Source: Rhizopus arrhizus
Taxonomy: Eukaryota > Mucoromycota > Mucoromycetes > Mucorales > Rhizopodaceae
Length of the DNA: 64,000 nucleotides
Direction of reading: 5' to 3'
NCBI GenBank assembly: GCA_024220505.1
Contig: JAKZZE010000008.1
Location: 124,001-188,000, forward strand
Made by a program: the position numbers and the translations under genes. The notes beneath the pieces were generated by a model. It saw nothing but the letters and a program-made list of their open reading frames with translations. It had not been told where the DNA came from and searched no databases. Shown here piece after piece: positions 8,551-64,000 of this stretch; position 1 is the first letter of the stretch; every line of letters starts with the position of its first letter.

Positions 8551-8586
8551 TGATATAATATTTTTTTTTTTAGTATTTTAAAAGGA

Positions 8587-45086: not shown

Positions 45087-45104
45087 CTACTATGGTCACA
45101 GTGT

Positions 45105-45166
45105 TACAACAATACCAAAAAAGCATTTCCGACATTCATCAGAACACCAGAAACGCGTAAATATCA
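45105..45166. other. Native 3' flank of tRNA-Pro
   Basis: 62 bp between the F2 target duplication and the tRNA 3' end, the only undisturbed flank of the gene. Confidence 0.7.
45117..45122 (-). terminator. Probable pol III terminator of tRNA-Pro
   Basis: T6 on the tRNA sense strand, 44 bp after the tRNA 3' end; the first T run of 4 or more that I see. Confidence 0.6.
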
Positions 45167-45238
45167 GGGCTTCTCCGGGAATCGAACCCGGGACCTCTCG
45201 CACCCTAAGCGAGAATTATACCACTAAACCAAGAAGCC
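45167..45238 (-). tRNA. tRNA-Pro (anticodon AGG)
   Basis: An intact cloverleaf on the minus strand: acceptor GGCTTCT/AGAAGCC, D arm with TGGTTTAGTGG (A box), anticodon stem CTCGC/GCGAG with loop TTAGGGT (anticodon AGG), T arm CCGGG-TTCGATT-CCCGG (B box GGTTCGATTCC), discriminator C at 45167. No intron. The first 15 bases of the gene form the junction repeat of the LINE/SINE array that starts at its 5' end. As the array inserts exactly before the first base, the gene body stays intact, but its natural upstream flank is replaced by SINE1a. Confidence 0.95.
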
Positions 45239-45779
45239 AGGTGTGGGTGTTTGTCGTAGTGGTTAAGGCGCTACCGTATGGGTTGAGTGTCCTTTGGACA
45301 TGCAGGTTCGAATCCTGCCTTCCTCGCACCGTCTCTTCCACGCACGGTCACATGACTTCCTTAACGTGCGTCGTCTCTGGCTTTCGGTGTGTCCCGCCTG
45401 TGTGTTGCGTTGCGTGCCAGCTGGGTATCTGGTCCACCTTCCCTCCCTTTCGGTGTCCCCGTTGGCATCCCTTTCTGTTCTCTCTTTCCTCCCTGGGTTT
45501 TGACGCCGCTGCTGTTCTGGTCGGTCTGCGTTGTGTGCTGTTTGGTGAGCAGCATTATCAGCGTTGCAAGGATGCCCACCTCGGGCTTAATGAAGCATGT
45601 CTCTCTCTCTCTGTTCTAAGTCTTCGTCTGTCGCTCCAGCTAAAATAATTGCCCTGCTTACCCTCCCTTCCCTTCCCCCTTAACAGTTTGTATGCTTTCC
45701 CAGTTCGTTCTGTGGTCTAGCAATTAATGACACATATGTCGCCTGCATATTTGACCAATAAAAAATAAAAAACTTTCGT
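45239..45779 (+). mobile_element. SINE1a, tRNA-derived
   Basis: 541 bp. The 5' part is tRNA-like with A box around 45253-45269 (GTCGTAGTGGTTAAGGC) and a perfect B box GGTTCGAATCC at 45305-45315, with a long variable arm as in tRNA-Leu or tRNA-Ser. The body is pyrimidine-rich. The 3' tail contains GTCGCCTGCATATTTGACC, AATAAAAAATAAAAA and TTCGT directly before the junction repeat. It is transcribed away from tRNA-Pro. The open frames across it are not credible proteins. Confidence 0.88.
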
Positions 45780-45794
45780 CTAAACCAAGAAGCC

Positions 45795-46301
45795 AAGGTA
45801 TGTGGAGATAGTGCAAATGGTTAGAGCGTCTGCCTATCATTCGGGAGGTTGCAAGTTCAACCCCTCGTATCCGCATATCTACCCTTTCCGCACTCTAACT
45901 GCATGTTCTCTTTCTGCGGTGCTTTAAGCACTGAATGATTTTGTCTTGTGTGTCGCGTTGAGCGACAGCTTTGTATCTGTTCGCCTTCCTTCCCTCCATT
46001 GTTGTTTGGTGTTGTGCCGCTTGATAACACCTGGTTTTAATGCCACAAGTTGCTTCGGTGGTATGAGGTGTTTGTTGATCGTTGTCTGTGCGTTGCCTGG
46101 ATTCCCAGCCCCGGGATTAAAGAAGCACCGTTCTGTCTCTGCCTCAAGTCTTCGTCTATGGTTTCTGCTTCAAGATTGTAATTCGCTCCTTCCCCCATTC
46201 CCCCCTAATAACTTGTATGCTTTCCAGGATGTTCCTGTGGATTGCAATAATGATTTGTTAATCGCCTGCATATAATCCAATAAAATATAAAAATCTTTAA
46301 C
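45795..46301 (+). mobile_element. SINE2, tRNA-derived with a different head
   Basis: 507 bp. A box TAGTGCAAATGGTTAGAGC at 45809-45827, B box AGTTCAACCCC at 45854-45864, with a short variable loop, so the head derives from a different tRNA than SINE1. The body shares blocks with SINE1 and SINE3 (for example GTATGCTTTCCAG and AAGTCTTCGTCT). The tail is AATAAAATATAAAAATCTTTAAC. Confidence 0.85.
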
Positions 46302-46511
46302 CTAAACCAAGAAGCCACTTTCTTTCGCTTTTGGTTAAAAAGGTAAACTTGACTCTTTTTTTGGAAAGCCGATATCTCTGTCAAATCTATCCATCCATCA
46401 ACAATTTTTACATCAATCGACTCCTTTTGATCTATATTTTTATTTGGTTCAACTCTTATTCTGCTACCTTCAATACTTGTTGCTTAATCGTTGCTCAAAG
46501 TTTGCATCCAA

Positions 46512-47498
46512 ATGTCAACAACAAGAAATACTAGAGGATCCAAAATCCTGAATGCCGCCGCCGGACCCAATTCGTCCGAGCTCGAAGTCACAGTGCAAAA
46601 TCTCAGTCACGCACTTCAAGAGGTAACGACTAGACTCTCAGCCTTAGAACAGCTTAAGCTGGAATTGGAGACTTTGAGAGGTGAGAATGCTCGCCTCGTA
46701 CAAACCAATGAATCTCAAGCCAATGAGATTGCTTCTCTGCGTGCTCAGTTAGCCGCACAAACCGCCGGGGTCCCTACAAGCACCCCAAGTTCAAATACCG
46801 CTCTTTCTTCTGCTGCTGCTCCTGCTGGTGCTAAACAGTCCGTTTCTTCGCCCTCCTTGGGTACTGCTGCCTCGTCTTGGGCTACTGTTGTTTCTCGTTC
46901 TGCAAAGAACAAACTCCGTCGCCGTGCCGCTGCTGCTCGTGGTTTCCAGCCTGTGTCTGGTGAGCAAGGTTTTGACTATGTCTACATACCTAGATCTCGC
47001 AAAATGACATATACCGAAGCTCGTCGTCGTCTTGGTCGTCTGGGTGTTGACACCTGGCGGGTGCTAGATGTTTCGTTCCCCGCGCACTCCGTTGTTGGCC
47101 TACTTGTACACCTCCAGTACAAGCCTGCTCTCGTCTCATTGCTTGAAAAAGCAAAGATCAAGATCCTCGATCAGTTCGACCCTTTGGATCCTGACAATGT
47201 TGCTGACCCTGCTTTCTCTTCCGCGTCTCTGGAGGTACGTCAAGAAAAGATGGCGCACATTTCTAATGAGCGTTGCCTTCGTACCCTTGAGCGCTTGCGC
47301 TATCCTGTTGCTGTTGCTGTCTCGCGCTTCTTTTTGGCTAATGCCATGGTGTCTGACGAGGCTGTCTCTGATGTCTTGTCTGCCAAGCAAGATCGTCCCT
47401 CCTTCCCTCGTCATCCTGATCAACCCGACGACGACATGGTTCTTGATGACTATGAGCATCACCGTCCTGCCTCTCGTTCCAGCTTTGGATCATTATAA
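46512..47498 (+). CDS. LINE G1 ORF1 protein
   Basis: 328 residues from the ATG at 46512 (MSTTRNTRGSKIL); the frame is open 7 codons upstream but without ATG. The protein should bind LINE RNA and form the transposition particle. A coiled coil spans about residues 27-80 (Leu/Ala heptads in ALQEVTTRLSALEQLKLELE and ENARLVQTNESQANEIASL), followed by an Ala/Ser/Pro linker, a basic segment KNKLRRRAAAARGF (about 133-146), and a folded C-terminal half with YTEARRRLGRLGVDTWRVLDV, which may be an RNA-binding domain. The C-terminus is acidic (DDDMVLDDYEHH). No CCHC knuckle is visible. The stop TAA overlaps the ORF2 start by one base (TAATG). The protein is identical by eye to that of G2. Confidence 0.88.
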   Translation: MSTTRNTRGSKILNAAAGPNSSELEVTVQNLSHALQEVTTRLSALEQLKLELETLRGENARLVQTNESQANEIASLRAQLAAQTAGVPTSTPSSNTALSSAAAPAGAKQSVSSPSLGTAASSWATVVSRSAKNKLRRRAAAARGFQPVSGEQGFDYVYIPRSRKMTYTEARRRLGRLGVDTWRVLDVSFPAHSVVGLLVHLQYKPALVSLLEKAKIKILDQFDPLDPDNVADPAFSSASLEVRQEKMAHISNERCLRTLERLRYPVAVAVSRFFLANAMVSDEAVSDVLSAKQDRPSFPRHPDQPDDDMVLDDYEHHRPASRSSFGSL

Positions 47499-47528
47499 TG
47501 ATGAGTAGTAATACTTGTCATTATAATG
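47488..47528 (+). promoter_or_regulatory. ORF1/ORF2 stop-start junction with duplicated palindrome, G1
   Basis: The 10-bp palindrome CATTATAATG contains the ORF1 stop and ORF2 start (TAATG, followed by ATGA) and is repeated about 30 bp downstream. G2 and G3 are identical here; in G4 the second copy is CGTTATAATG. TAATGA-type junctions support termination-reinitiation in the LINE SART1. Confidence 0.7.
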
Positions 47529-50500
47529 TATCCTCGGTCTCTACATCTGGTATGGTCCCAGATCCGTCAACTCCTTCCTCTCCTTTGGTTTCTCTTAGTT
47601 CTCATGGCTCCCATGGTCCATCCTCTCCTTTATCATCGTCATCATCATCTATACCGCTTACAATCGGCTTGTGGAATGCCAATGGGCTTCAAGAATCCAC
47701 AGCCGAAGATCTCCTCCGTCACTGCCAGTCGTTCTCTTTGGTCTTCATCACTGAAACCTGGTTGCTTCCGCCTCACAGGATCCGTACCTCTTGGACCCAG
47801 TTCAACCTGTATGGCTCTCCTGTGATCAACAGCTATCGTGGCTCTCAAGGTGTCTCTGCTCTGGTGTCTCCTCGGTGTCCGATGGCTGTGGTACAGTTCC
47901 CGGTTCATACCAAGTATGCTCTGGGTCTGCGGTTGGGTCGCTCCTTGCGTCTCATCTGCCTGTATTTGCCCCCTTCCTTGTCCAACGACGAGGTCTCTTC
48001 TGTGTTGGTTTCGTTGCCCTTGACAGACGACACGATCATCTGTGGTGATCTGAACGCGCGTCTTGGTGCACTAACGGGTGATTCCGTTGCCAATGCTCGA
48101 GGTTCGGTGCTGCTTCGCTGGTGTGAAGAACATGGTCTCTCTGTTCTGAACTCGACTCTTGCTCCTGGGGTGCCTACTTTCTTGTCCTTTCGTGGTGGTC
48201 AAGTCAAGCAAAGTATGATCGACTACTTCTTGACCAACATGACCTCTGTCCTTAGGTCCCCTCGGATGCAAGTCTACAGTGATCTCTCTCTTGGCTCTGA
48301 CCACAAACTGTTGTCCTTGTCCTTTGACTATGCAGTCCCTGATGGTTATCCATCGCAGCCCGTTCTCTCTTCTTCTTCTGCCCGTCGGCTATGGAACCTC
48401 TCTCGGTTGAAGGAACCCGATGTCTGTAGTCTGTACGTGGCCTCATTCCAGTCCTTGGTCTCTCCATTGGTTGATCAGCTCAAAGCTTTGAAGTCAAGTC
48501 CTCCTTCTGCTGCTCCGCCTATAGACGCTCTCAATGACGCTCTGAATGAGGCGATCTATAGTGCACTCGACAAGTCGGTTGGCTCTCGCTCTTCTCGACC
48601 TTCCCAATGGAAGCCATTCTGGAATGCGCACTTGCAAGAACTCGCCGATGTTCGTGAACACCACTACCGCAAGTGGCGTCGTGCTATTGGCATCGACAAG
48701 GCCTTGTGGTGGGATCGACATCAGGTCGCTCAAGCCCGGTTCCGCTCTGCTCTCAAGTCTGCCAAACGTCTCTCTTGGCGTGCTTTCTGTGACTCTCTGG
48801 CCCGTGGCGAACTTGCTCGTGCGATGTCGAAGGTGAAGGTGATTCGGAACCGACGACGTCAACAGGTTGGGTTTACTCATCCTGACGGCCCTGCTGCAGG
48901 TGCGAACGCGATGCGTCAACACCTTGCCTCGGTCTACTCTGGTGACGGTCTTCCGTCAAGGCGTCCTGACCCTCTGCCCTCTGTCTCTGGTATGGTGCCT
49001 TTTGACCTCGATAGTCAAGACCCTGGTATGCCCTCGTTCTCTGCTGACAGTGTGGGTTCACTGATGCGACGTCTCCCTCTGCGTAAGGCTCCTGGTCCTG
49101 ACCACTTGCGTACGGAGATGCTCCTCCCCATCAAGTCTGTTCTGGCCCCACTGCTCTCCTTGCTTTTCAGTATCTGCTACCAGTGGTCGTATACCCCTTC
49201 TCTCTGGCGTCAAGCACAGGTGGTCCCCATCCACAAAAAGGGTGATCCTACCTCGCCAGGGAACTATCGTCCAATCTCCTTGACCTCCATCGTCCGCAAG
49301 CTCTTTGAGATGTGTCTCTTTCCCTCTGTTGAAGATGTCTCTCCTCCGCTCGATGTAGTTCAAGGTGGTTTCCGTCACCAGCGTAGTGCATTGGATCAAG
49401 CTCTCTGTCTTCATGATCTGATGCACTCTTACCGACGCCGACACAATCATTATCCTGTGGTCGCTTTCTTGGACATCAAGTCAGCCTATGATACAGTCGA
49501 TCGTCGTATCATATGGCAATCGATGCTCGCCTCTTCTGCTCCTCTGTCCTTGGTGTCCTTGTTGGCCAACATGTTTGATGATGTCTCGGTGTCTGTGTTG
49601 TTGCAGAACAATGTCTCTGATCCGTTTGTGCCGAGTACAGGTGTCCTTCAGGGCTCTGTCTTGAGTCCTCACCTGTACTCTATCTATGTCAACACATTGC
49701 CAGCTCTGCTTCGTTCTGCTGCTTCTGCAACAACCACCTCGGTGCTATCGGTGTCTCCTTCTGGTCCTCCTGGTCCTGGTGCTCTGGTCGCTGATGGTCT
49801 TCCCTTTGGTCCTTTGGTTGGTACTGCTGCTTTGTCTTCCTCGTCTCCTACGCCCACACCCATCAACAGTCTGTTGTATGCGGATGATGTGGCGCTGGTT
49901 GGGTCTGCTAGCGAAGTTCGGCATATGCTGGACCTAGCGCAGATCCACTCCTTGACTCTTGGTTACAAGTGGAGTCCACCAAAGTGTGCTGTCTTAAATG
50001 CACCCACTACTACATCAAGTCGATATGTTCAAATGTCGCTATATGATCAAGACCTTCCCTCTGTTGAGGAGTTCACTTACCTTGGTGTACCTTTTGATGG
50101 TAAGGGTATTTCTGTCCCTGCTATGATCAAGCATCGCGCGTCTAGTACTCTTGCTGCCATGGCTCAGCTACACTCGATGGGGCTCAACCGTCAAGGATTT
50201 ACTCTGCTTCTCTCTTCTCGTCTGTTCGCTGCGTTCATACGTCCTAAGCTTGAGTATGGTCTTGCCATTGCTCAGCTTTTAAGAAAGGACTATGACGAAC
50301 TCAATCGTGCTCAAGACCGATGTCTAAGGATGCTTGTCGGTGGTCATAGGACCGCCTCAACTGTAGTACTTCGGCACATTGCCAATCTACCGTCAATGTC
50401 TTTTCGTGCTGACACCCTGGTGCTCAAGTTCTGTCGTCGCTCTGAGGGTCTACCTGACGATTGTCTCTTGTCTTTGCTCTCTCAGTCTGTGCCAGTGTCT

Positions 50501-51058
50501 CTTCTGTCTCGACTCCGTAAGCGGCGTATCGTCCTCGATTGCCCTTCGGATGTCTCTTCATCTTCTCGTCTTGCTTCTTGGTTGCGAAGGTATCGTCAAG
50601 ACCAGTTTCATAGCTTCTTACAGTCCACCCCCCAGGTTCTGATCCGCGCTTGTCGTCCTGTTCTTCGGGTGGATCCCATCCTCTACTTGCCTGCCTCCCG
50701 TGCTGACCGGTCTCGTCTCATCAGATGGCGCATGGGTTGGATCCCAGGCAAGCCTGCTCCCTGTTCCTGTGGTCTTGGCGATACTTCTCGTTCTCACCTC
50801 ATGGTCTGTAACTTGGTTCCTTCTGCTCTCTGGTGCTGCCTGCCTGTTCCACCGGCTGACTATGTGGGTCACCACATAGACTATGTCTTGAACTTGCTTC
50901 CTGTCTCTGCTTCTGCTCGGTGTCCGCCTTTCTGGTCCGCTCTTTGTCAGATCCTCTGTCACTTTGACAAGATCTGTCATCCTGACATCGAGTACAACTC
51001 GTCTTCTGCTCCAGGTCAAGTCTGGATTGACAAGTCCTCTGCTGCTGCTGTTCCATAA
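47498..51058 (+). CDS. LINE G1 ORF2: APE endonuclease and reverse transcriptase
   Basis: 1186 residues, intact. The apurinic-type endonuclease occupies about residues 50-275: LWNANGL, FITETWL, CGDLNARLG (about 182), SMIDYFLTN and SDHKLLSL (about 266). The RT occupies about 535-880: APGPDHLRTEML, HKKGDPTSPGNYRPISL, FLDIKSAYDTVDRR (motif A, about 657), STGVLQGSVLSPHLYS (motif B), LLYADDVALVG (catalytic pair, about 793), WSPPKCAVLN and FTYLGVPF. A Ser/Gly/Pro-rich insert of about 50 residues separates motifs B and C. A CX1CX8HX3C finger stands at about 1088-1103. No RNase H domain. It should nick the tRNA-Pro boundary and copy LINE RNA there by target-primed reverse transcription; SINE RNAs are likely additional templates. 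Confidence 0.92.
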   Translation: MMSSNTCHYNVSSVSTSGMVPDPSTPSSPLVSLSSHGSHGPSSPLSSSSSSIPLTIGLWNANGLQESTAEDLLRHCQSFSLVFITETWLLPPHRIRTSWTQFNLYGSPVINSYRGSQGVSALVSPRCPMAVVQFPVHTKYALGLRLGRSLRLICLYLPPSLSNDEVSSVLVSLPLTDDTIICGDLNARLGALTGDSVANARGSVLLRWCEEHGLSVLNSTLAPGVPTFLSFRGGQVKQSMIDYFLTNMTSVLRSPRMQVYSDLSLGSDHKLLSLSFDYAVPDGYPSQPVLSSSSARRLWNLSRLKEPDVCSLYVASFQSLVSPLVDQLKALKSSPPSAAPPIDALNDALNEAIYSALDKSVGSRSSRPSQWKPFWNAHLQELADVREHHYRKWRRAIGIDKALWWDRHQVAQARFRSALKSAKRLSWRAFCDSLARGELARAMSKVKVIRNRRRQQVGFTHPDGPAAGANAMRQHLASVYSGDGLPSRRPDPLPSVSGMVPFDLDSQDPGMPSFSADSVGSLMRRLPLRKAPGPDHLRTEMLLPIKSVLAPLLSLLFSICYQWSYTPSLWRQAQVVPIHKKGDPTSPGNYRPISLTSIVRKLFEMCLFPSVEDVSPPLDVVQGGFRHQRSALDQALCLHDLMHSYRRRHNHYPVVAFLDIKSAYDTVDRRIIWQSMLASSAPLSLVSLLANMFDDVSVSVLLQNNVSDPFVPSTGVLQGSVLSPHLYSIYVNTLPALLRSAASATTTSVLSVSPSGPPGPGALVADGLPFGPLVGTAALSSSSPTPTPINSLLYADDVALVGSASEVRHMLDLAQIHSLTLGYKWSPPKCAVLNAPTTTSSRYVQMSLYDQDLPSVEEFTYLGVPFDGKGISVPAMIKHRASSTLAAMAQLHSMGLNRQGFTLLLSSRLFAAFIRPKLEYGLAIAQLLRKDYDELNRAQDRCLRMLVGGHRTASTVVLRHIANLPSMSFRADTLVLKFCRRSEGLPDDCLLSLLSQSVPVSLLSRLRKRRIVLDCPSDVSSSSRLASWLRRYRQDQFHSFLQSTPQVLIRACRPVLRVDPILYLPASRADRSRLIRWRMGWIPGKPAPCSCGLGDTSRSHLMVCNLVPSALWCCLPVPPADYVGHHIDYVLNLLPVSASARCPPFWSALCQILCHFDKICHPDIEYNSSSAPGQVWIDKSSAAAVP

Positions 51059-51322
51059 TGACAAGCGCTCTGATCCACCCTCTGGCTTCTACCTCCCACT
51101 GCCAAACCATTTGAGTGCACGATGCGGAGGAGACCATGGTGTTGACGAGTTGCTTAGTAGTTAGCGCTTCCATTGGCCTTTTCTCTTTCCTTTTTTTCGC
51201 TCTTGTGTGCTCTGCGAGTGTTTTTTGTTTCTTGTCTCTTATTTTTGTTTCTTGAGTATGACTATCATGATATTTATCGCTTGTCAATATACTCCTAATA
51301 TATATTAATAAAAAATTTTCGT
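51059..51322 (+). other. LINE G1 3' UTR with terminal hairpin
   Basis: About 260 bp. GAGTAT at 51254-51259 can pair with ATACTC at 51289-51294, with GAC/GTC extending the stem; this precedes the A-rich tail. The hairpin is conserved in G2 and G3 and is a candidate RT recognition structure. Confidence 0.6.
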
Positions 51323-51529
51323 CTAAACCAAGAAGCCTTTTCTTTCGCTTTTGGTTAAAAAGGTAAACTTGACTCTTTTTTGGAAAGCCGATATCTCTGT
51401 CAAATCTATCCATCCATCAACAATTTTTACATCAATCGACTCCTTTTGATCTATATTTTATTTGGTTCAACTCTTATTCTGCTACCTTCAATACTTGTTG
51501 CTTAATCGTTGCTCAAAGTTTGCATCCAA

Positions 51530-52516
51530 ATGTCAACAACAAGAAATACTAGAGGATCCAAAATCCTGAATGCCGCCGCCGGACCCAATTCGTCCGAGCT
51601 CGAAGTCACTGTCCAGAATCTCAGTCACGCACTTCAAGAGGTAACGACTAGACTCTCAGCCTTAGAACAGCTTAAGTTGGAATTGGAGACTTTGAGAGGT
51701 GAGAATGCTCGCCTCGTACAAACCAATGAATCTCAAGCCAATGAGATTGCTTCTCTGCGTGCTCAGTTAGCCGCACAAACCGCCGGGGTCCCTACAAGCA
51801 CCCCAAGTTCAAATACCGCTCTTTCTTCTGCTGCTGCTCCTGCTGGTGCTAAACAGTCCGTTTCTTCGCCCTCCTTGGGTACTGCTGCCTCGTCTTGGGC
51901 TACTGTTGTTTCTCGTTCTGCAAAGAACAAACTCCGTCGCCGTGCCGCTGCTGCTCGTGGTTTCCAGCCTGTGTCTGGTGAGCAAGGTTTTGACTATGTC
52001 TACATACCTAGATCTCGCAAAATGACATATACCGAAGCTCGTCGTCGTCTTGGTCGTCTGGGTGTTGACACCTGGCGGGTGCTAGATGTTTCGTTCCCCG
52101 CGCACTCCGTTGTTGGCCTACTTGTACACCTCCAGTACAAGCCTGCTCTCGTCTCATTGCTTGAAAAAGCAAAGATCAAGATCCTCGATCAGTTCGACCC
52201 TTTGGATCCTGACAACGTTGCTGACCCTGCTTTCTCTTCCGCGTCTCTGGAGGTACGTCAAGAAAAGATGGCGCACATTTCTAATGAGCGTTGCCTTCGT
52301 ACCCTTGAGCGCTTGCGCTATCCTGTTGCTGTTGCTGTCTCGCGCTTCTTTTTGGCTAATGCCATGGTGTCTGACGAGGCTGTCTCTGATGTCTTGTCTG
52401 CCAAGCAAGATCGTCCCTCCTTCCCTCGTCATCCTGATCAACCCGACGACGACATGGTTCTTGATGACTATGAGCATCACCGTCCTGCCTCTCGTTCCAG
52501 CTTTGGATCATTATAA
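51530..52516 (+). CDS. LINE G2 ORF1 protein
   Basis: 328 residues, by eye identical in protein sequence to G1 ORF1, with a few silent changes (for example AACGTTGCT against AATGTTGCT near 52215). Coiled coil, basic segment and acidic tail as in G1. The stop overlaps the ORF2 start as TAATG. Confidence 0.88.
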   Translation: MSTTRNTRGSKILNAAAGPNSSELEVTVQNLSHALQEVTTRLSALEQLKLELETLRGENARLVQTNESQANEIASLRAQLAAQTAGVPTSTPSSNTALSSAAAPAGAKQSVSSPSLGTAASSWATVVSRSAKNKLRRRAAAARGFQPVSGEQGFDYVYIPRSRKMTYTEARRRLGRLGVDTWRVLDVSFPAHSVVGLLVHLQYKPALVSLLEKAKIKILDQFDPLDPDNVADPAFSSASLEVRQEKMAHISNERCLRTLERLRYPVAVAVSRFFLANAMVSDEAVSDVLSAKQDRPSFPRHPDQPDDDMVLDDYEHHRPASRSSFGSL

Positions 52517-55500: not shown

Positions 55501-56076
55501 CAGTCTGTGCCAGTGTCTCTTCTGTCTCGACTCCGTAAGCGGCGTATCGTCCTCGATTGCCCTTCGGATGTCTCTTCATCTTCTCGTCTTGCTTCTTGGT
55601 TGCGAAGGTATCGTCAAGACCAGTTTCATAGCTTCTTACAGTCCACCCCCCAGGTTCTGATCCGCGCTTGTCGTCCTGTTCTTCGGGTGGATCCCATCCT
55701 CTACTTGCCTGCCTCCCGTGCTGACCGGTCTCGTCTCATCAGATGGCGCATGGGTTGGATCCCAGGCAAGCCTGCTCCCTGTTCCTGTGGTCTTGGCGAT
55801 ACTTCTCGTTCCCATCTCATGGTCTGTACCTTGGTTCCTTCTGCTCTTTGGTGCTGCCTGCCTGTTCCACCGCCTAACTATGTGGGTCATCACATAGATT
55901 ATGTCTTGAACTTGCTTCCCGTCTCTGCTTCTGCTCGGTGTCCGCCTTTCTGGTCCGCTCTTTGTCAGATCCTCTGTCACTTTGACAAGATCTGTCATCC
56001 TGACATCGAGTACAACTCGTCTTCTCTGCCAGGTCAAGTCTGGATTGACAAGTCCTCTGCTGCTGCTGTTCCATAA
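52516..56076 (+). CDS. LINE G2 ORF2: APE endonuclease and reverse transcriptase
   Basis: 1186 residues, intact, with all endonuclease (WNANGL, ITETWL, GDLNAR, SDHKLL) and RT (DIKSAYD, LQGSVLSP, YADD) motifs. It differs from G1 at scattered residues, for example SFTPSSSSSS in the Ser-rich N-terminus, YRGGQ for FRGGQ and TLVPS for NLVPS. The finger CSCGLGDTSRSHLMVC is unchanged. Confidence 0.92.
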   Translation: MMSSNTCHYNVSSVSTSGMVPDPSTPSSPLVSLSSHGSHGSFTPSSSSSSSIPLTIGLWNANGLQESTAEDLLRHCQSFSLVFITETWLLPPHRIRTSWTQFNLYGSPVINSYRGSQGVSALVSPRCPMAVVQFPVHTKYALGLRLGRSLRLICLYLPPSLSNDEVSSVLVSLPLTDDTIICGDLNARLGALTGDSVANTRGSVLLRWCEEHGLSVLNSTLAPGVPTFLSYRGGQVKQSMIDYFLTNMTSVLRSPRMQVYSDLSLGSDHKLLSLSFDYAVPDGYPSQPVLSSSSARRLWNLSRLKEPDVCSLYVATFQSLVSPLVDQLKALKSSPPSAAPPIDALNDTLNEAIYSALDKSVGSRSSRPSQWKPFWNAHLQELADVREHHYRKWRRAIGIDKALWWDRHQVAQARFRSALKYAKRLSWRAFCDSLARGELARAMSKVKVIRNRRRQQVGFTHPDGPAAGANAMRQHLASVYSGDGLPSRRPDPLPSVSGMVPFDLDSQDPGMPSFSADSVGSLMRRLPLRKAPGPDHLRTEMLLPIKSVLAPLLSLLFSICYQWSYTPSLWRQAQVVPIHKKGDPTSPGNYRPISLTSIVRKLFEMCLFPSVEDVSPPLDVVQGGFRHQRSALDQALCLHDLMHSYRRRHNHYPVVAFLDIKSAYDTVDRRIIWQSMLASSAPLSLVSLLANMFDDVSVSVLLQNNVSDPFVPSTGVLQGSVLSPHLYSIYVNTLPALLRSAASATTTSVLSVSPSGPPGPGALVSDGLPFGPLVGAAALSSSSPTPTPINSLLYADDVALVGSASEVRHMLDLAQIHSLTLGYKWSPPKCAVLNAPTTTSSRYVQMSLYDQDLPSVEEFTYLGVPFDGKGISVPAMIKHRASSTLAAMAQLHSMGLNRQGFTLLLSSRLFAAFIRPKLEYGLAIAQLLRKDYDELNRAQDRCLRMLVGGHRTASTVVLRHIANLPSMSFRADTLVLKFCRRSEGLPDDCLLSLLSQSVPVSLLSRLRKRRIVLDCPSDVSSSSRLASWLRRYRQDQFHSFLQSTPQVLIRACRPVLRVDPILYLPASRADRSRLIRWRMGWIPGKPAPCSCGLGDTSRSHLMVCTLVPSALWCCLPVPPPNYVGHHIDYVLNLLPVSASARCPPFWSALCQILCHFDKICHPDIEYNSSSLPGQVWIDKSSAAAVP

Positions 56077-56371
56077 TGACAAGCGCTCTGATCCACCCTC
56101 TGGCTTCTACCTCCCACTGCCAAACCATTTTAGTGCACGATGCGGAGGAGACCATGGTGTTGACGAGTTGCTCAGTAGTTAGCGTATCCATTGGCCTTTT
56201 CTCTTTCCTTTTTTTCACCCTTGTGTGCTCTGCGAGTGTTTTTTGCTTCTTGTCTCTTATTTTTGTTTCTTGAGTATGACTATCATGATATTTATCGCTT
56301 GTCAATATACTCCTAATATATATTAATAAAAAAAAAAAAAAAAAAAAAATCTTCGTCTAAACCAAGAAGCC

Positions 56372-56909
56372 AGGTGTGGGTGTTTGTCGTAGTGGTTAAG
56401 GCGCTACCGTATGGGTTGAGTGTCCTTTGGACATGCAGGTTCGAATCCTGCCTTCCTCACACCGTCTCTTCCACGCACGGTCACATGACTTCCTTAACGT
56501 GCGTCGTCTCTGGCTTTCGGTGTGTCCCGCCTGTGTGTTGCGTTGCGTGCCAGCTGGGTATCTGGTCCACCTTCCCTCCCTTTCGGTGTCCCCGTTGGCA
56601 TTTCTTTCTGTTCTCTCTTTCCTCCCTGGGTTTTGACGCCGCTGCTGTTCTGGTCGGTCTGCGTTGTGTGCTGTTTGGTGAGCAGCATTATCAGCGTTGC
56701 AAGGATGCCCACCTCGGGCTTAATGAAGCATGTCTCTCTCTCTCTGTTCCAAGTCTTCGTCTGTCGCTTCAGCCAAATAATTGCCCTGCTTACCCTCCCT
56801 TCCCTTCCCCCTTAACAGTTTGTATGCTTTCCCAGTTCGTTCTGTGGTCTAGCAATTAATGACACATATGTCGCCTGCATATTTGACCAATAAAAATAAA
56901 AAGTTTCGT
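56372..56909 (+). mobile_element. SINE1b, tRNA-derived
   Basis: 538 bp, nearly identical to SINE1a along its whole length including head (A box about 56386-56402, B box GGTTCGAATCC 56438-56448) and TTCGT tail, but located on the far side of two LINE copies. It is bounded by junction repeats. Confidence 0.88.
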
Positions 56910-56924
56910 CTAAACCAAGAAGCC

Positions 56925-57451
56925 GGGGATGTGGATGTAGCTCAGTCGGTAGAGCGTCTGACTATTATTGGTGTGGTCGCAAGTTCGACCCCTGATAGGA
57001 TCTTCGGATCTATCCTTTCCCTGCCCCTCTACATGTTCTGTTTGCCGAGTGCATCAAGCACTTTTGTTTCTCCGCCTGTGTGTTGCGTTGCGTAGCAGCT
57101 GAGCATCTGCCTACTTTCCTTCCCTTTCGGGGGACTTTGGTGTGCGCTCTTGACGATAATACTGGTTTTAACGCCACTGCTGTTCTGGTCGGTTGGTCTG
57201 CGTTGGTTGTTTGTCGAGCGTTGTTGGTCCGCGGTGCCGGGATGCCCAGCCCGGGCTTAATGAAGCGCGTTCTGTTCTGCCTCAAGTCTTCGTCTCTGGT
57301 TCCAGCTCCCCCCAATAATAATTCGTTCCTTCTTTCTTCCTTTCCCTCCTCCCCCATAATAGTTTGTATGCTTTCCAGTTTATCACTGTGGATAGCAATA
57401 ATGACATATTTGTCGCCTGTATATTATCCAATAAAATATAAAATCTTTAAC
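56925..57451 (+). mobile_element. SINE3, tRNA-derived with a third head
   Basis: 527 bp. The head has a canonical A box TAGCTCAGTCGGTAGAGC (56938-56955) and B box AGTTCGACCCC (56982-56992), typical of a class I tRNA. The body aligns with SINE1 (TGTGTTGCGTTGCGT, GCTGTTCTGGTCGGT, CGGGCTTAATGAAGC) while the tail (AATAAAATATAAAATCTTTAAC) matches SINE2. Confidence 0.86.
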
Positions 57452-57661
57452 CTAAACCAAGAAGCCACTTTTCTTTCGCTTTTGGTTAAAAAGGTAAACT
57501 TGACTCGTTTTTGGAAAGCCGATATCTCTGTCAAATCTATCCATCCATCAACAATTTTTACATCAATCGACTCCTTTTGATCTATACTTTTATTTGGTAC
57601 AACTCATATCTCGATATCTTTCATACTTGTTGCTTAATCGTTGCTGAAAGTTTGCATCCAA

Positions 57662-58648
57662 ATGTCAACAACAAGAAATACTAGAGGATCAAAAATCCTG
57701 AATGCCGCCGCCGGACCCAATTCGTCCGACCACGAAGTCACAGTTCAGAACCTAAGTCACGCACTTCAAGAGGTAACGACTAGACTCTCAGCCTTAGAAC
57801 AGTTCAAGCTGGAATTGGAGACTTTGAGAGGTGAGAATGCTCGCCTCGTACAAGTTACTGAATCTCAAGCCAATGAGATTGCTTCTCTGCGTGCTCAGTT
57901 AGCCGCACACACTCCCGGGGTCCCTACAAGCACCCCAAGTTCAAATGCCGCCGTTTCTTCTCCTGTTGCTCCTGCTGCTGCTAACGCGCCCGTTTCTTCG
58001 CCCTCCTTGGGTACTGCTGCCTCGTCTTGGGCTACTGTTGTTTCTCGTTCTACAAAAAATAAACTCCGTCGCCGTGCCGCTGCTGCTCGTGGTTTTCAAC
58101 CTGTAACTGGTGAGCAAGGATTTGACTACGTCTACATACCTCGATCCCGTAAAATGACATATACCGAAGCTCGTCGTCGTCTTGGTCGCTTGGGTGTTGA
58201 TACCTGGCGGGTGTTAGACGTTTCGTTCCCCGCCCACTCCGTTGTTGGTCTACTTGTACACCTTCAGTACAAGCCTGCTCTCGTCTCCTTGCTTGAAAAA
58301 GCAAAGATTAAGGTTCTTGATCAGTTCGATCCTTTGGATCCTGACAATGTTGCTGACCCTGCTTTCTCTTCCGCGTCTCTTGAGGTACGTCAAGAAAAGA
58401 TGGCCTATATCTCCAACGAGCGCTGTCTTCGTACCCTTGAGCGCTTGCGCTATCCTGTTGCTGTTGCTGTCTCTCGTTTCTTTTTGGCCAATGCCATGGT
58501 ATCTGATGAGGCCGTCTCTGATGTCTTGGCTGCCAAGCAAGATCGTCCTGCCTTCCCTCGTCACCGCGATCAACCCGACGACGACATGGTTCTTGATGAC
58601 TATGAACATCACCGTCCTGCCTCTCGTTCCAGCTTTGGATCATTATAA
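57662..58648 (+). CDS. LINE G3 ORF1 protein
   Basis: 328 residues from the ATG at 57662. Same domain order as G1 (coiled coil, Ala/Ser/Pro linker, KNKLRRRAAAARGF, YTEARRRLGRLGVDTWRVLDV, acidic tail) with substitutions mainly in the linker (for example AHTPGVPTSTPSSNAAVSS). The stop overlaps the ORF2 start as TAATG. Confidence 0.88.
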   Translation: MSTTRNTRGSKILNAAAGPNSSDHEVTVQNLSHALQEVTTRLSALEQFKLELETLRGENARLVQVTESQANEIASLRAQLAAHTPGVPTSTPSSNAAVSSPVAPAAANAPVSSPSLGTAASSWATVVSRSTKNKLRRRAAAARGFQPVTGEQGFDYVYIPRSRKMTYTEARRRLGRLGVDTWRVLDVSFPAHSVVGLLVHLQYKPALVSLLEKAKIKVLDQFDPLDPDNVADPAFSSASLEVRQEKMAYISNERCLRTLERLRYPVAVAVSRFFLANAMVSDEAVSDVLAAKQDRPAFPRHRDQPDDDMVLDDYEHHRPASRSSFGSL

Positions 58649-61600
58649 TGATGAGTAGTAATACTTGTCATTATAATGTATCCTCGGTCTCTGCTACTGG
58701 TATGGTCCCAGCTCCTTCCTCTCCTTTGGTTCCCTCTGGTTCTCATGGCTCCCATGGTTCATTCACTCCTTCATCCTCATTAAGTTCATCTATACCGCTT
58801 ACAATCGGCTTGTGGAATGCCAATGGGCTTCAAGAATCCACAGCCGAGGATCTCCTTCGTCACTGCCAGTCGTTTTCCTTGGTCTTCATCACCGAAACCT
58901 GGTTGCTTCCGCCTCACAGGATCCGTACCTCTTGGACCCAGTTCAACTTGTATGGCTCTCCTGTGATCAACAGCTATCGTGGCTCTCAAGGTGTCTCTGC
59001 TCTGGTGTCTCCTCGGTGTCCGATGGCTGTGGTACAGTTCCCGGTTCATACCAAGTATGCTCTGGGTCTGCGGTTGGGTCGCTCCTTGCGTCTCATCTGC
59101 CTGTATTTGCCCCCTTCCTTGTCCAACGACGAGGTCTCTTCTGTGTTGGTTTCGTTGCCCTTGACAGACGACACGATCATCTGTGGTGATCTGAACGCGC
59201 GTCTTGGTGCATTAACGGGTGATTCCGTTGCCAATGCTCGAGGTTCGGTGCTGCTTCGCTGGTGTGAAGAACATGGTCTCTCTGTTCTGAACTCGACTCT
59301 CGCTCCTGGGGTGCCTACTTTCTTGTCCTTTCGTGGTGGTCAAGTCAAGCAAAGTATGATCGACTACTTCTTGACCAACATGACCTCTGTCCTTCGGTCC
59401 CCTCGGATGCAAGTCTACAGTGATCTCTCTCTTGGCTCTGACCACAAACTGTTGTCCTTGTCCTTTGACTATGCAGTCCCTGATGGTTATCCATCGCAGC
59501 CCGTTCTCTCTTCTGCTTCTTCTTCTGCCCGTCGGCTATGGAACCTCTCTCGGTTGAAGGAACCTGATGTCTGTAGTCTGTACGTGGCCACATTCCAGTC
59601 CTTGGTCTCTCCATTGGTTGATCAGCTCAAAGCTCTGAAGTCAAGTCCTCCTTCTGCTGCTCCGCCTATAGACGCTCTCAATGACACTCTGAATGAGGCG
59701 ATCTATAGTGCACTCAACAAGTCGGTTGGCTCTCGCTCTTCTCGACCTTCCCAATGGAAGCCATTCTGGAATGCGCACTTGCAAGAACTCGCCGATGTTC
59801 GTGAACACCACTACCGCAAGTGGCGTCGTGCTATTGGCATCGACAAGGCCTTGTGGTGGGATCGACATCAGGCTGCTCAAGCCCGGTTCCGCTCTGCTCT
59901 CAAGTCTGCTAAGCGTCTCTCTTGGCGTGCTTTCTGTGACTCTCTGGCCCGTGGCGAACTTGCTCGTGCGATGTCGAAGGTGAAGGTGATTCGGAACCGA
60001 CGACGTCAACAGGTTGGGTTTACTCATCCTGACGGCCCTGCTGCAGGTGCGAACGCGATGCGTCAACACCTTGCCTCGGTCTACTCTGGTGACGGTCTTC
60101 CGTCAAGGCGTCCTGACCCTCTGCCCTCTGTCTCTGGTATGGTGCCTTTTAACCTCGATAGTCAAGACCCTGGTATGCCTTCGTTCTCTGCTGACAGTGT
60201 GGGTTCACTGATGCGACGTCTCCCTCTGCGTAAGGCTCCTGGTCCTGACCACTTGCGTACGGAGATGCTCCTCCCCATCAAGTCTGTTCTGGCCCCACTG
60301 CTCTCTTTGCTCTTTAGTATCTGCTACCAGTGGTCGTATACCCCTTCTCTCTGGCGTCAAGCACAGGTGGTCCCCATCCACAAAAAGGGTGATCCTACCT
60401 CGCCAGGGAACTATCGTCCAATCTCCTTGACCTCCATCGTCCGCAAGCTCTTTGAGATGTGTCTCTTTCCCTCTGTTGAAGATGTCTCTCCTCCACTCGA
60501 TGTAGTCCAAGGTGGTTTCCGTCACCAGCGTAGTGCATTGGATCAAGCTTTGTGTCTTCATGATCTGATGCACGCTTACCGACGCCGACACAATCATTAT
60601 CCTGTGGTCGCTTTCTTAGACATCAAGTCATCCTATGATACAGTCGATCGTCGTATCATATGGCAATCGATGCTCGCCTCTTCTGCTCCTCTGTCCTTGG
60701 TGTCCTTGTTGGCCAACATGTTTGATGATGTCTCGGTGTCTGTGTTGTTGCAGAACAATGTCTCTGGTCCTTTTGTGCCGAGTACAGGTGTCCTTCAGGG
60801 CTCTGTCTTGAGTCCTCATCTGTACTCGATCTATGTCAACACATTGCCAGCTCTGCTTCGTTCTGCTGCTTCTGCAACAACGACCTCGGTGCTATCCGTG
60901 TCTCCTTCTGGTCCTCCTGGTCCTGGTGCTCTGGTCGCTGATGGTCTTCCCTTTGGTCCTTTGGTTGGTTCTGCTGCTTTGTCTTCCTCGTCTCCGTCGC
61001 CCACACCCATCAACAGTCTGTTGTATGCGGATGATGTGGCGCTGGTTGGGTCTGCTAGCGAAGTTCGGCATATGCTGGACCTAGCGCAGATCCACTCCTT
61101 GACTCTTGGTTACAAGTGGAGTCCACCAAAGTGTGCCGTCCTTAATGCACCTACTGCCACCTCAAGTCGCTTTGTCCAGATGTCATTGTATGATGAAGAT
61201 CTTCCCTCTGTTGAGGAGTTTACTTATCTCGGTGTGCCCTTTGATGGTAAGGGTATTTCTGTCCCTGCTATGATCAAGCATCGCGCGTCTGGTACTCTTG
61301 CTGCCATGGCTCAGCTCCATTCGATGGGACTCAACCGTCAAGGATTTACTCTGCTGCTCTCTTCTCGTCTGTTCGCTGCGTTCATACGTCCTAAGCTTGA
61401 GTATGGCCTAGCCATTGCTCAACTTACAAGAAAGGACTATGACGAACTCAATCGCGCGCAAGACCGATGTTTAAGGATGCTTGTCGGTGGCCATCGAACG
61501 GCCTCCACTGTTGTACTTCGTCATATCTGCAACCTGCCTTCGATGACCTTCCGTGCTGACACTCTGGTACTCAAGTTCTGCCGTCGCTCTGAGGGTCTGC

Positions 61601-62205
61601 CTGATGATTGCCTCTTGTCCCTGCTCTCTCAATCTGTGCCAGTGTCTCTTCTGTCTCGACTCCGTAAGCGGCGTATCGTCCTTGATTGCCCTTCGGATGT
61701 CTCTTCATCTTCTCGTGTTGCTTCTTGGTTGCGAAGGTATCGTCAAGACCAGTTCCATAGCTTCTTACAGTCCACCCCTCAGGTTCTGATTCGCGCTTGT
61801 CGTCCTGTTCTTCGGGTGGATCCCATCCTGTACTTGCCTGCCTCCCGTGCTGACCGGTCTCGTCTCACCAGATGGCGCATGGGTTGGATCCCAGGCAAGC
61901 CTGCTCCCTGTTCCTGTGGTCTTGGCGATACTTCTCGCTCGCACCTTATGGTCTGTACCTTGGTTCCTTCTGCTCTTTGGTGCTGTTTACCTGTTCCGCC
62001 GACTGGCTATGTGGGTCACCACATAGACTATGTCTTGAACTTGCTTCCTGTCTCTGCTTCTGCTCGGTGTCCGCCTTTCTGGTCCGCTCTATGTCAGATC
62101 CTCTGTCACTTTGACAAGATCTGTCATCCTGACATCGAGTACCACTCATCATCTGCTCCAGGTCAAGCCTGGATTGACAAGTCCTCTGCTGCTGCTGATC
62201 CATAA
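58648..62205 (+). CDS. LINE G3 ORF2: APE endonuclease and reverse transcriptase
   Basis: 1185 residues, intact. All endonuclease and RT catalytic motifs are kept. RT motif A reads DIKSSYD where G1 and G2 have DIKSAYD; the catalytic Asp residues are unaffected. The N-terminal Ser-rich segment is shorter, and one Ala-Ser pair is added near residue 290 (VLSSASSSARR). The finger and the insert between RT motifs B and C are as in G1. Confidence 0.91.
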   Translation: MMSSNTCHYNVSSVSATGMVPAPSSPLVPSGSHGSHGSFTPSSSLSSSIPLTIGLWNANGLQESTAEDLLRHCQSFSLVFITETWLLPPHRIRTSWTQFNLYGSPVINSYRGSQGVSALVSPRCPMAVVQFPVHTKYALGLRLGRSLRLICLYLPPSLSNDEVSSVLVSLPLTDDTIICGDLNARLGALTGDSVANARGSVLLRWCEEHGLSVLNSTLAPGVPTFLSFRGGQVKQSMIDYFLTNMTSVLRSPRMQVYSDLSLGSDHKLLSLSFDYAVPDGYPSQPVLSSASSSARRLWNLSRLKEPDVCSLYVATFQSLVSPLVDQLKALKSSPPSAAPPIDALNDTLNEAIYSALNKSVGSRSSRPSQWKPFWNAHLQELADVREHHYRKWRRAIGIDKALWWDRHQAAQARFRSALKSAKRLSWRAFCDSLARGELARAMSKVKVIRNRRRQQVGFTHPDGPAAGANAMRQHLASVYSGDGLPSRRPDPLPSVSGMVPFNLDSQDPGMPSFSADSVGSLMRRLPLRKAPGPDHLRTEMLLPIKSVLAPLLSLLFSICYQWSYTPSLWRQAQVVPIHKKGDPTSPGNYRPISLTSIVRKLFEMCLFPSVEDVSPPLDVVQGGFRHQRSALDQALCLHDLMHAYRRRHNHYPVVAFLDIKSSYDTVDRRIIWQSMLASSAPLSLVSLLANMFDDVSVSVLLQNNVSGPFVPSTGVLQGSVLSPHLYSIYVNTLPALLRSAASATTTSVLSVSPSGPPGPGALVADGLPFGPLVGSAALSSSSPSPTPINSLLYADDVALVGSASEVRHMLDLAQIHSLTLGYKWSPPKCAVLNAPTATSSRFVQMSLYDEDLPSVEEFTYLGVPFDGKGISVPAMIKHRASGTLAAMAQLHSMGLNRQGFTLLLSSRLFAAFIRPKLEYGLAIAQLTRKDYDELNRAQDRCLRMLVGGHRTASTVVLRHICNLPSMTFRADTLVLKFCRRSEGLPDDCLLSLLSQSVPVSLLSRLRKRRIVLDCPSDVSSSSRVASWLRRYRQDQFHSFLQSTPQVLIRACRPVLRVDPILYLPASRADRSRLTRWRMGWIPGKPAPCSCGLGDTSRSHLMVCTLVPSALWCCLPVPPTGYVGHHIDYVLNLLPVSASARCPPFWSALCQILCHFDKICHPDIEYHSSSAPGQAWIDKSSAAADP

Positions 62206-62678
62206 TGACAAGCGCTCTGATCCACCCTCTGGCTTCTACCTCCCACTGCCAAACCATTTTAGTGCACGATGCGGAGGAGACCATGGTGTTGACGAGTTGC
62301 TCAGTAGTTAGCGTCTCCATTGGCCTTTTCTCTTTCCTCTTTTTCGCTCTTGTGTGCTCTGCGAGTGTTTTTTGATTCTTGTCTCTTCTTTTTTGTTTCT
62401 TGAGTATGACTATCATGATATTTATCGCTTGTCAATATACTCCTAATATATATTAATAAAAATTTTCGTCTAAACCAAGAAGCCTTTTTCTTTCGCTTTT
62501 TGTTCAAAAGGTAAATTTGTCTCTTTTTTGGAAAGCCGATATCTCTGTCAAATCTATCCATCCATCAACAATTTTTACATCAATCGACTCCTTTTGATCT
62601 ATACTTTTATTTGGTTCAACTCTTATTCTGATATCTTTGCTACTTGTTGTTTAATCGTCGTTGAAAGTTTGCATCCAA

Positions 62679-63665
62679 ATGTCTTCAACAAGAAATACTA
62701 GAGGATCCAAAATCCTGAATGCCGCCGCCGGACCCAATTCGTCCGACCCCGAAGTCACAGTTCAAAGCCTCAGTCACGCACTTCAAGCTGTCACTGCTCG
62801 TCTCTCTGCTCTTGAACAGCTCAAGCTGGAGCTTGAAACTTTGCGAGGTGAGAATGCTCGCCTTGCCGAAACCACCCAATCTCAAGCCAATGAGATTGCT
62901 TCTTTGCGGGCCCAACTGGCCGCACAATCTGCCGGGGTCCCTACAAGCACCCCAAGTTCAACTGCCGCCGTCTCTTCTCCTGCTGCTCCTACTGGTGCTA
63001 AAGCGTCCGTTCCTTCGCCCTCCTTGGGTACTGCTGCCTCTTCTTGGGCCACTGTTGTTTCTCGTTCTGCAAAGAACAAAATCCGTCGTCGTGCTGCCGC
63101 TGCTCGTGGTTTCCAGCCTGTGTCTGGTGAACAAGGCTTTGAGTATGTCTATATACCTCGCTCTCGTAGGATGACCTACACTGAAGCTCGTCGTCGTCTC
63201 TCTCGCCTTGGTGTGGATAGCTGGCGCATCTTAGATGTGTGCTATCCTGCTCACTCTGTTGTCGGTCTTCTTGTACATCTGCAGTACAAGCCTGCTCTTT
63301 TGTCCTTGCTTGAAAAAGCCGAGATCCCCACCTTGGATACCTTTGATCCGCTTGACCCTGCCAACCTGGCCGATCCCAAGTTTGACTCTGTTTCTGCTGA
63401 GGAGCGTAGCCATGCCATCTCGCTCATCAATGACGACCGCTCTCGCAAGGCTTTAGAGCGCTTGCGCTATCCTGTTGCTGTCTCTGTCTCCCGTTACTTG
63501 TTGGCGCAAGCCCTTGTCTCTGATGAGACAGTATCTGAAGTTCTGTCTGCTAAGGAAGATAGACCCAAGACTACCCGCCATTACGATGATATGGCCGAAG
63601 ACATGGCTCTTGATGACTATGAGCATCACCGTCCTGCCTCTCGCTCTAGCTTTGGATCATTATAA
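62679..63665 (+). CDS. LINE G4 ORF1 protein
   Basis: 328 residues from the ATG at 62679 (MSSTRNTRGSKIL). The coiled coil and basic segment are conserved; the C-terminal half has many replacements (for example RLSRLGVDSWRILDVCYPAHS and ERSHAISLINDDRS). The length is unchanged, suggesting selection on the protein. TAATG overlap with ORF2. Confidence 0.88.
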   Translation: MSSTRNTRGSKILNAAAGPNSSDPEVTVQSLSHALQAVTARLSALEQLKLELETLRGENARLAETTQSQANEIASLRAQLAAQSAGVPTSTPSSTAAVSSPAAPTGAKASVPSPSLGTAASSWATVVSRSAKNKIRRRAAAARGFQPVSGEQGFEYVYIPRSRRMTYTEARRRLSRLGVDSWRILDVCYPAHSVVGLLVHLQYKPALLSLLEKAEIPTLDTFDPLDPANLADPKFDSVSAEERSHAISLINDDRSRKALERLRYPVAVSVSRYLLAQALVSDETVSEVLSAKEDRPKTTRHYDDMAEDMALDDYEHHRPASRSSFGSL

Positions 63666-64000
63666 TGATGAGTAGTAATACTTGTCGTTATAATGCATCC
63701 TCGGTCTCTACATCTGGTATGGTTCCAGATCTGTCAACTCCTTCCTCTCCTTTGGTGTCCTCTGGTTCTCATGGCTCCCATGGTCCTTCATCGTCCTCTT
63801 CATCATCTTCTATTCCGCTCACCATCGGCTTGTGGAATGCCAATGGGCTTCAAGAATCCACAGCCGAGGATCTCCTCCGTCACTGCCAGTCGTTCTCATT
63901 GGTCTTCATCACCGAAACCTGGTTGCTTCCGCCTCACAGGATCCGTACCTCTTGGACCCAGTTCAACTTGTATGGCTCTCCTGTGATCAACAGCTATCGT
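63665..64000 (+). CDS. LINE G4 ORF2, 5' part only
   Basis: The first 112 codons of an endonuclease-RT ORF, open to the window end, with LWNANGL and FITETWL visible. The remainder is outside the window. Confidence 0.85.
   Translation, partial: MMSSNTCRYNASSVSTSGMVPDLSTPSSPLVSSGSHGSHGPSSSSSSSSIPLTIGLWNANGLQESTAEDLLRHCQSFSLVFITETWLLPPHRIRTSWTQFNLYGSPVINSYR

Follow-up and report, generated by a model that had tools for sequence, protein, structure and literature searches.

Base-exact stacks of LINEs and SINEs at the 5' ends of tRNA genes in Rhizopus arrhizus

How can a tRNA gene remain intact while retrotransposons accumulate directly at its first base? This question is raised by a stretch of 64,000 nucleotides from Rhizopus arrhizus (GenBank assembly GCA_024220505.1, contig JAKZZE010000008.1, positions 124,001 to 188,000 of the forward strand; hereafter the window), in which long and short interspersed nuclear elements (LINEs and SINEs) are lined up at a tRNA-Pro(AGG) gene. 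We use "LINE-1" as a local name for the LINE family of the window and "scar" for the duplicated tRNA 5' target left by an insertion; genome-wide counts refer to the genome of the window (50.3 Mb). We hold, with a probability of roughly 85%, that the array consists of separate LINE and SINE insertions made by target-primed reverse transcription from a predicted nick in the A box of the tRNA gene, with duplication of tRNA nucleotides (nt) 1-14.

A preliminary description of the window had reported eight unit boundaries carrying one 15-mer identical to the 5' end of the tRNA-Pro(AGG) gene, with all units in one direction, and our analysis confirmed this. All eight 15-mers (CTAAACCAAGAAGCC) were exact at their positions and on the + strand; 100 shuffles gave a mean of 0.14 matches at up to two mismatches, and none of the 100 reached eight. 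ARAGORN called an intact tRNA-Pro(AGG) gene, the landing site, at 45167-45238 on the minus strand (Rfam tRNA, 58.2 bits), and the first 15-mer (45224-45238, +) was nt 1-15 of this gene, running from nt 15 to 1 with nt 14-1 as the duplicated part. From the tRNA 5' side, the units on the + strand were SINE S1 (45239-45779, 541 nt, tail ending in TTTCGT), SINE S2 (45795-46301, 507 nt, tail ending in TTTAAC like that of a sister LINE described below), LINE-1 copy 1 (46317-51322, 5006 nt), LINE-1 copy 2 (51338-56356, 5019 nt, with a long A run preceding TCTTCGT), a second S1 (56372-56909, 538 nt), SINE S3 (56925-57451, 527 nt, tail ending in TTTAAC), LINE-1 copy 3 (57467-62469, 5003 nt) and a partial LINE-1 copy 4 (62485-64000) cut at the window end. 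All pointed away from tRNA-Pro, with CTAAACCAAGAAGCC at every boundary. The first junction (45780-45794) consisted of an element-coded C and a 14-bp target copy, and the others lay at 46302-46316, 51323-51337, 56357-56371, 56910-56924, 57452-57466 and 62470-62484 (all +). Unit lengths from 15-mer to 15-mer were 556, 522, 5021, 5034, 553, 542 and 5018 nt, with one more unit cut at the window end, and a ninth 15-mer lay beyond the window (C40:192734). LINEs and SINEs thus have a common base-exact junction, the target is duplicated with each insertion, and the units stack beside an intact tRNA gene, as had been proposed.

In principle, instead of repeated insertion, one or a few units could have been multiplied by tandem duplication or unequal exchange to give the array. 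The window shows the order SINE-SINE-LINE-LINE two times, with a repeat distance of about 11.13 kb, and C26:607728-611837 (607.7-611.8k; L026-L028), near a contig end, repeats 54.8-59.0k of the window at 98.7-99.8% with mostly small-gap differences. However, the repeated order contains different SINEs (S2 and S3 were 72.1% alike) and LINEs that have diverged to 95%: copies 1 and 2 were 98.5% alike, and copy 3 was 95.2-95.3% alike to either. The same or sister elements also occur with other 14-mers at nine other tRNA kinds, and copies outside tRNA genes have duplications of their own. Duplication of a single unit, which the preliminary description had named as a possible explanation of the array, therefore does not hold, and this alternative as a whole is largely refuted and improbable. 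Misassembly of a repeat-rich locus is hardly credible. Several stacks reach contig ends (C26, C18, C14, C12) and the C26 copy, probably a duplicate contig end or the product of a recent exchange, resembles such an artifact, but the window units differ by 1.5-5% and by kind, and the same rule holds at many separate places.

LINE-1 is a non-long-terminal-repeat (non-LTR) retrotransposon with an apurinic/apyrimidinic (AP)-type endonuclease, as seen in its endonuclease and reverse transcriptase domains, target duplications and 5'-truncated copies. Copy 1 carries two open reading frames (ORFs) on the + strand, ORF1 (46488-47498, 336 aa from stop to stop) and ORF2 (47456-51058, 1200 aa from stop to stop), the latter with an AP-type endonuclease and a reverse transcriptase. 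Both ORFs are also open in copy 3; ORF2 of copy 4 lies mostly outside the window, and its matched part contains two TAG codons. ORF1 matched no Pfam family above the cut-off and showed a coiled-coil-like stretch by eye. Pfam placed an endonuclease at the N-terminus of ORF2 (PF14529, 4.3e-11; PF03372, 1.5e-5) followed by a reverse transcriptase (PF00078, 2.4e-24), and the Pfam scan found no RNase H domain. Human L1 ORF2p and R2 were matched by sequence and by fold. The predicted ORF2 model (mean predicted local distance difference test score, 82.6) matched full-length human L1 ORF2p; the endonuclease part of the model resembled the L1 and TRAS1 endonucleases with template-modelling scores of 0.75-0.77 of target. 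The closest ORF2 relative was a Rhizopus delemar protein (89% identity across 88% of the query). Thirty-six aligned relatives were 40-95% identical, the named ones coming from Mucoromycotina (Rhizopus, Mucor, Umbelopsis); Phycomyces was likewise represented among the ORF2 relatives. Among the ORF2 matches listed in a separate search, at least 40 in number, 19 spanned all or nearly all of the 1200 residues without a stop.

We then asked which genes carry these junctions. The genome contains 50 exact 15-mers and seven identical tRNA-Pro(AGG) genes. At all seven, base 1 was occupied by a LINE or SINE, in one case with an 8-nt tag in between, which answers the earlier question of whether other tRNA-Pro loci are occupied; up to ten 15-mer intervals followed one gene. 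C26 and C28 were rejected as additional independent tRNA-Pro loci, since they contain 15-mers and none of the seven genes. To avoid circularity, LINE-1 3' ends were also located by tail sequence only, without use of the 15-mer. In this test 44 of 45 ends lay at a tRNA 5' end, 43 at an exact 14-mer (38 read as sequence; five, three on C29 and two on C32, by coordinates against the 15-mer list) and one at a shortened form, in which the tail was followed by no more than the final 11 nt of the Asp 14-mer (L056). The remaining end was off-target (L052), so that copies away from tRNA sequence, which would have spoken against the proposed targeting, amounted to 1/45. Specificity for tRNA-Pro, as first suggested, was rejected: LINE-1 used eight kinds, namely Pro(AGG), Gly(TCC), Gly(GCC), Asp(GTC), His(GTG), Ala(TGC), Val(AAC) and Val(TAC), each represented by at least one ARAGORN gene with an element no more than 2 bp from base 1.

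Two more kinds were used by a sister LINE, whose ORF2 was 52-53% and ORF1 37% identical to those of LINE-1 and whose tail ends in TTTAAC, as do those of S2 and S3. Of its 61 3' tails, 49 lay at Ile(AAT) 14-mers, nine at Ala(AGC) 14-mers and two at Ile forms with one mismatch, giving 60/61 on tRNA 14-mers; the last was off-target. There were 95 tRNA-Ile-type places, with a common spacing of about 4.85 kb and longer stacks than those of LINE-1. A stack on C3 extended up to 64 kb in one orientation (C3:1635623-1699954), and other long stacks at tRNA-Ile(AAT) were found at C18:842260-884083 and on C24 and C31, some reaching contig ends. In 14 fragments from Ile-type places, a tRNA-Ile gene was present in eight, four of which had the LINE at base 1. 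For both LINEs together, ten tRNA kinds called by ARAGORN had an element no farther than 2 bp from base 1; the junctions at these ten kinds were base-exact, those examined had one orientation, and the tRNAs beside the first unit were intact.

The length of the duplication bears on where the DNA would be cut. In Gly(TCC), the base before the 14-mer was T in 3/3 genes and C in 7/7 junctions; in Ala(AGC), it was T in the one gene seen and C in 11/11 junctions. Because the genes read T where the junctions read C, this C is element-coded and the duplication comprises tRNA nt 1-14. The preliminary description was thus right about a duplicated target, and its length of 15 bp was rejected in favor of a 14-bp tRNA copy plus one element-coded base. 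Each LINE also had one off-target copy outside tRNA genes, both 5'-truncated with 14/15-bp duplications, and no tRNA gene was seen beside either. The sister copy (L160/L157, C41:892.1k) had TGAGTGGATTCTTC on both sides, preceded by T upstream and C downstream; the LINE-1 copy (L108/L052, C18:416k) had a 15-bp repeat in which the C is ambiguous.

Considering these junctions together with the established way in which LINEs insert, we infer that the sense strand is nicked behind nt 14 and that the other strand is cut at nt 1. The priming nick is likely to fall inside the A box, as judged from the element-coded C, and the gene start, to which the endonuclease cut had previously been assigned, would be the site of second-strand cleavage. 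In the predicted sequence of events, the LINE endonuclease nicks the tRNA-sense strand past nt 14 (TRGYNTA^RTGG in most targets), and the 3' end at the nick would prime copying of the element RNA, starting at its tail. The opposite strand would be cut 14 bp away at the first tRNA base. Fill-in would rebuild the entire tRNA gene and leave a 14-bp scar on the far side. The restored gene could then serve as a target again, later copies landing between the tRNA and older ones and displacing the old upstream flank. The sister LINE would act likewise at tRNA-Ile and Ala(AGC), with an A-box preference for CTCA in place of YNTA. A-box positions 11-13 were T/C, any base and T/A in the eight LINE-1 targets and CTC in the two sister targets. 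On a matrix built from the eight LINE-1 targets, 0.8% of random sites scored as high as the LINE-1 off-target site, which is suggestive only.

A different explanation is that the RNA polymerase III (Pol III) machinery, either TFIIIC on the A and B boxes or TFIIIB, brings the LINE to tRNA genes and that the endonuclease discriminates little between sequences. The targets are almost all tRNA genes, a second element (the CACTA transposon described below) keeps a fixed distance at the same places in varied sequence contexts, and recruitment of this kind has been proposed for Dictyostelium TRE5-A, whose ORF1 protein is described as binding TFIIIB (PMC5911963). On the other side, the position is base-exact, the sister LINEs divide tRNA genes by A-box letters (YNTA versus CTCA), and each LINE has an off-target copy that kept some near-nick letters with no tRNA gene seen adjacent. 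We regard recruitment with little endonuclease preference as possible but doubtful.

The tails of the SINEs are shared with the LINEs, TTTCGT of S1 with LINE-1 and TTTAAC of S2 and S3 with the sister LINE, and a SINE whose tail ends like that of a LINE would be mobilized by the LINE machinery. S2/S3-type tails were also present at 5/80 junctions on LINE-1 targets. Rfam gave no tRNA match to the SINE heads at E<=1 (window 45000-58000), and strings resembling the Pol III A and B boxes were seen by eye, for example GGTTCGAATCC in S1. At three other places beside a tRNA or scar (L117, C12:920581; L043 3937; L040 1464), an S1-like start (AGGTGTGG...) was followed by divergent sequence, perhaps representing short aborted or chimeric insertions.

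The gap between the LINE and base 1 was mostly 0-2 bp; with a tag or repeat in it, it contained up to about 10 additional bases. Such bases, lying between the scar and the 5' end of the LINE, sometimes matched the end of another target. A Gly tag (AAGAACGC) was found at the Pro gene at C8:1174215, a Pro tag (GAAGCC) at Ala (C20:742147) and Asp (L056) scars, and an Ile tag (CGACC) within the extra bases at an Ala scar (L158). Two Ala scars had CATTTCCCC-like Ala repeats, and GCAAGCC at a Gly gene was less clear. These tags suggest that the LINE RNA may start 5-10 nt inside the scar upstream of the donor, so that copies would bear a short label of their origin and would move between tRNA kinds.

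A third kind of element was found near the same genes. It is of the CACTA/EnSpm type, with CACTGC...GCAGTG ends, 3-bp repeats (TTT at L033, TCG/CGA at L049) and a tnp2-type transposase (PF02992, 8.8e-18, in the element of L037); examples lie at L037:173-10000, L033:577-3235 and L049:3665-6285, among others. Thirty-four CACTA ends lay within 200 bp of a 14-mer, at distances of 55 (1), 56 (10), 57 (14), 58 (7), 59 (1) and 60 bp (1), measured to tRNA base 1 or to the scar, with some ends cut by the locus end and known from 5-10 bases. Eight were adjacent to a tRNA gene and 26 stood at buried scars. The distance was kept whether the flank was LINE, SINE or other sequence, and also where an element had lost its 5' end. 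Steering by LINE or SINE sequence was rejected, since the same distance was seen in flank that was neither LINE nor S1 (L063, L115, L045, L100, L153), in a LINE (L064) whose 5' end was short by about 11 bp and in a SINE without its first 60 bp (L129). We infer that the CACTA transposon follows the Pol III complex. If so, the units with CACTA ends at buried scars (26/34) were once adjacent to a tRNA gene, and stacks likely grow at the tRNA end. Displaced flank with a CACTA copy was present 23.7 kb from tRNA-Gly on C34 and 9.9 kb from tRNA-His on C12, each apparently within one stack.

According to the preliminary description, each duplicated 15-mer serves the next insertion, so that a stack could grow at any point. 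The scar does retain the 14 target bases and the correct next base, and thus part of the recognition site. It lacks, however, TGG and the remaining A box, and the 26/34 CACTA ends at 55-60 bp from buried scars fit units that were formerly next to the tRNA. Insertion into scars need not be invoked and is unlikely to be the principal route, although it may occur at some scars, and we consider stack growth by this means unlikely. New units likely land at the regenerated tRNA gene.

Several points weigh against insertion from an A-box nick at a regenerated gene, or against the counts used here. Since the first 14 nt of a tRNA are fixed in length, an A-box nick and a base-1 cut, each with a 14-bp stagger, would leave the same sequence. 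The LINE-1 off-target site has neither G10 nor GG past the nick and fits the matrix moderately. Growth at the tRNA end is deduced from the CACTA scars, and of the 63 CACTA ends in fetched DNA, 34 were within 200 bp of a 14-mer, 23 had no 14-mer across 100 nt or more of flank (we take most of these as far ends of the same elements) and six had short flank; many fetched windows were short and junction-centred. Of 131 distinct 14-mer places at fetched loci, 35 belonged to tRNA genes and 95 followed the tail of an element, which at L038 had a variant end; one place was unexplained. The LINE-tail and SINE-tail labels came from a rough pattern, which assigned to LINEs a few S1 tails that had little context. 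The unexplained place (L110) was an Asp 14-mer without tRNA and without element. Empty genes also occurred. Four of 12 Asp genes found by pattern (L109, L115, L116, L118) had no LINE or SINE at base 1, and L115 still had a CACTA end at 59 bp. Among five His genes, L120 was empty, L117 was unclear and L124 had a 5'-truncated LINE, and no LINE-1 or S1 start was found at one of two Val(TAC) genes (L112). Gene counts for tRNA-Gly, Ala and Val are biased, most of these genes having been reached via elements. The near copy on C26 indicates that copies have also been added by recombination or by duplication in the assembly, so that the counts are not fully independent.

tRNA-targeted LINEs are already known. 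In Dictyostelium, TRE5 inserts about 50 bp upstream and TRE3 about 100 bp downstream of tRNA genes, and NLTR-A of D. purpureum, which has an RNase H domain, inserts 2-6 bp upstream of the mature tRNA (PMC5006619, PMC5911963). As described there, these are non-LTR elements landing at tRNA genes, like LINE-1, and the TRE5-A endonuclease is of the AP type as well. LINE-1 differs from TRE5 and TRE3 in inserting at tRNA base 1 and from NLTR-A in lying mostly 0-2 bp from base 1 with no RNase H found by Pfam; compared with these descriptions, it also duplicates tRNA nt 1-14, has SINE partners and forms stacks. NeSL-1_TV (tRNA-Pro), LIN15_SM (tRNA-Arg) and LIN25_SM (tRNA-Glu) are tRNA-specific LINEs of the restriction-like-endonuclease group (PMC4640811), each reported there for one tRNA kind, whereas LINE-1 uses eight kinds and an AP-type endonuclease. 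Many Dada DNA transposons target tRNA nt 8-13 within the A box (PMC3706591, PMC8869645). LINE-1 would share this A-box target, but Dada elements are DNA transposons that disrupt the gene, and each family is reported to be specific for an RNA gene of its own. Yeast Ty3 and Dictyostelium DGLT-A are LTR retrotransposons with an integrase that land just upstream of Pol III genes, Ty3 being guided by TFIIIB and the mechanism of DGLT-A being given as unknown (PMC5911963, PMC5006619); Tj1 of Schizosaccharomyces japonicus, also an LTR retrotransposon, lands upstream of Pol III genes (PMC4600332). In the Rhizopus oryzae 99-880 genome, which belongs to the same genus as the nearest ORF2 relative, Ty3/gypsy elements are often beside tRNA genes, and LINEs make up 3.78% and En/Spm 0.68%; section 7 of that paper does not mention LINEs or SINEs at tRNA 5' ends (PMC2699053). 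The literature matches listed included no LINE at fungal tRNA 5' ends and no CACTA element that keeps a constant distance to tRNA genes. They likewise described no LINE with an AP-type endonuclease that nicks the A box in many kinds of tRNA gene and forms base-exact LINE/SINE stacks. The combination of an AP-type LINE, the A box, many tRNA kinds and SINE partners was not found among these matches.

Other repeats surround the array. On the 3' side of tRNA-Pro, the ORFs of three elements at 17006-45086 of the window look Ty3/gypsy-like by eye. The nearest has LTRs (35172-35734 and 44526-45086) that are 99.6% identical and a 4-bp CTAC duplication, and it stops 80 bp from the tRNA-Pro 3' end; a second such element abuts it. 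Long ORFs at 7162-8577 (-) and 23075-24205 (+) resemble DDE transposases by eye. Elsewhere, a 1555-aa ORF that is Ty3/gypsy-like by eye (L039:4396-9455) lies directly behind an Asp scar and is followed by an S1 head. A common flank (TTGACAAAGTCGGATTTTGG-like) beside a tRNA gene or far scars at L109, L067 and L043 3937 is perhaps another tRNA-associated repeat.

Taken as a whole, the observations somewhat favor a wider account, in which the tRNA genes are shared out between two sister AP-type LINEs that recognize the A box itself. Each would nick the internal Pol III promoter, restore the gene perfectly and re-use it without limit, while SINEs with matching tails ride along. The CACTA transposon would stamp the stack about 57 bp upstream whenever a new unit is adjacent to the tRNA, so that stacks would be readable, ordered records of insertion in which 5' donor tags give the tRNA locus of origin. 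LINE, SINE and CACTA, unrelated kinds of element, are tied to the same genes at fixed offsets. If this account is true, the landing would be harmless by design, an essential multi-copy promoter being fully rebuilt each time and one gene taking many copies. The two LINEs would then offer a natural pair of endonucleases with differing A-box preferences for studies of specificity, together with a site-specific insertion system that spares the gene and stacks whose order could be dated.

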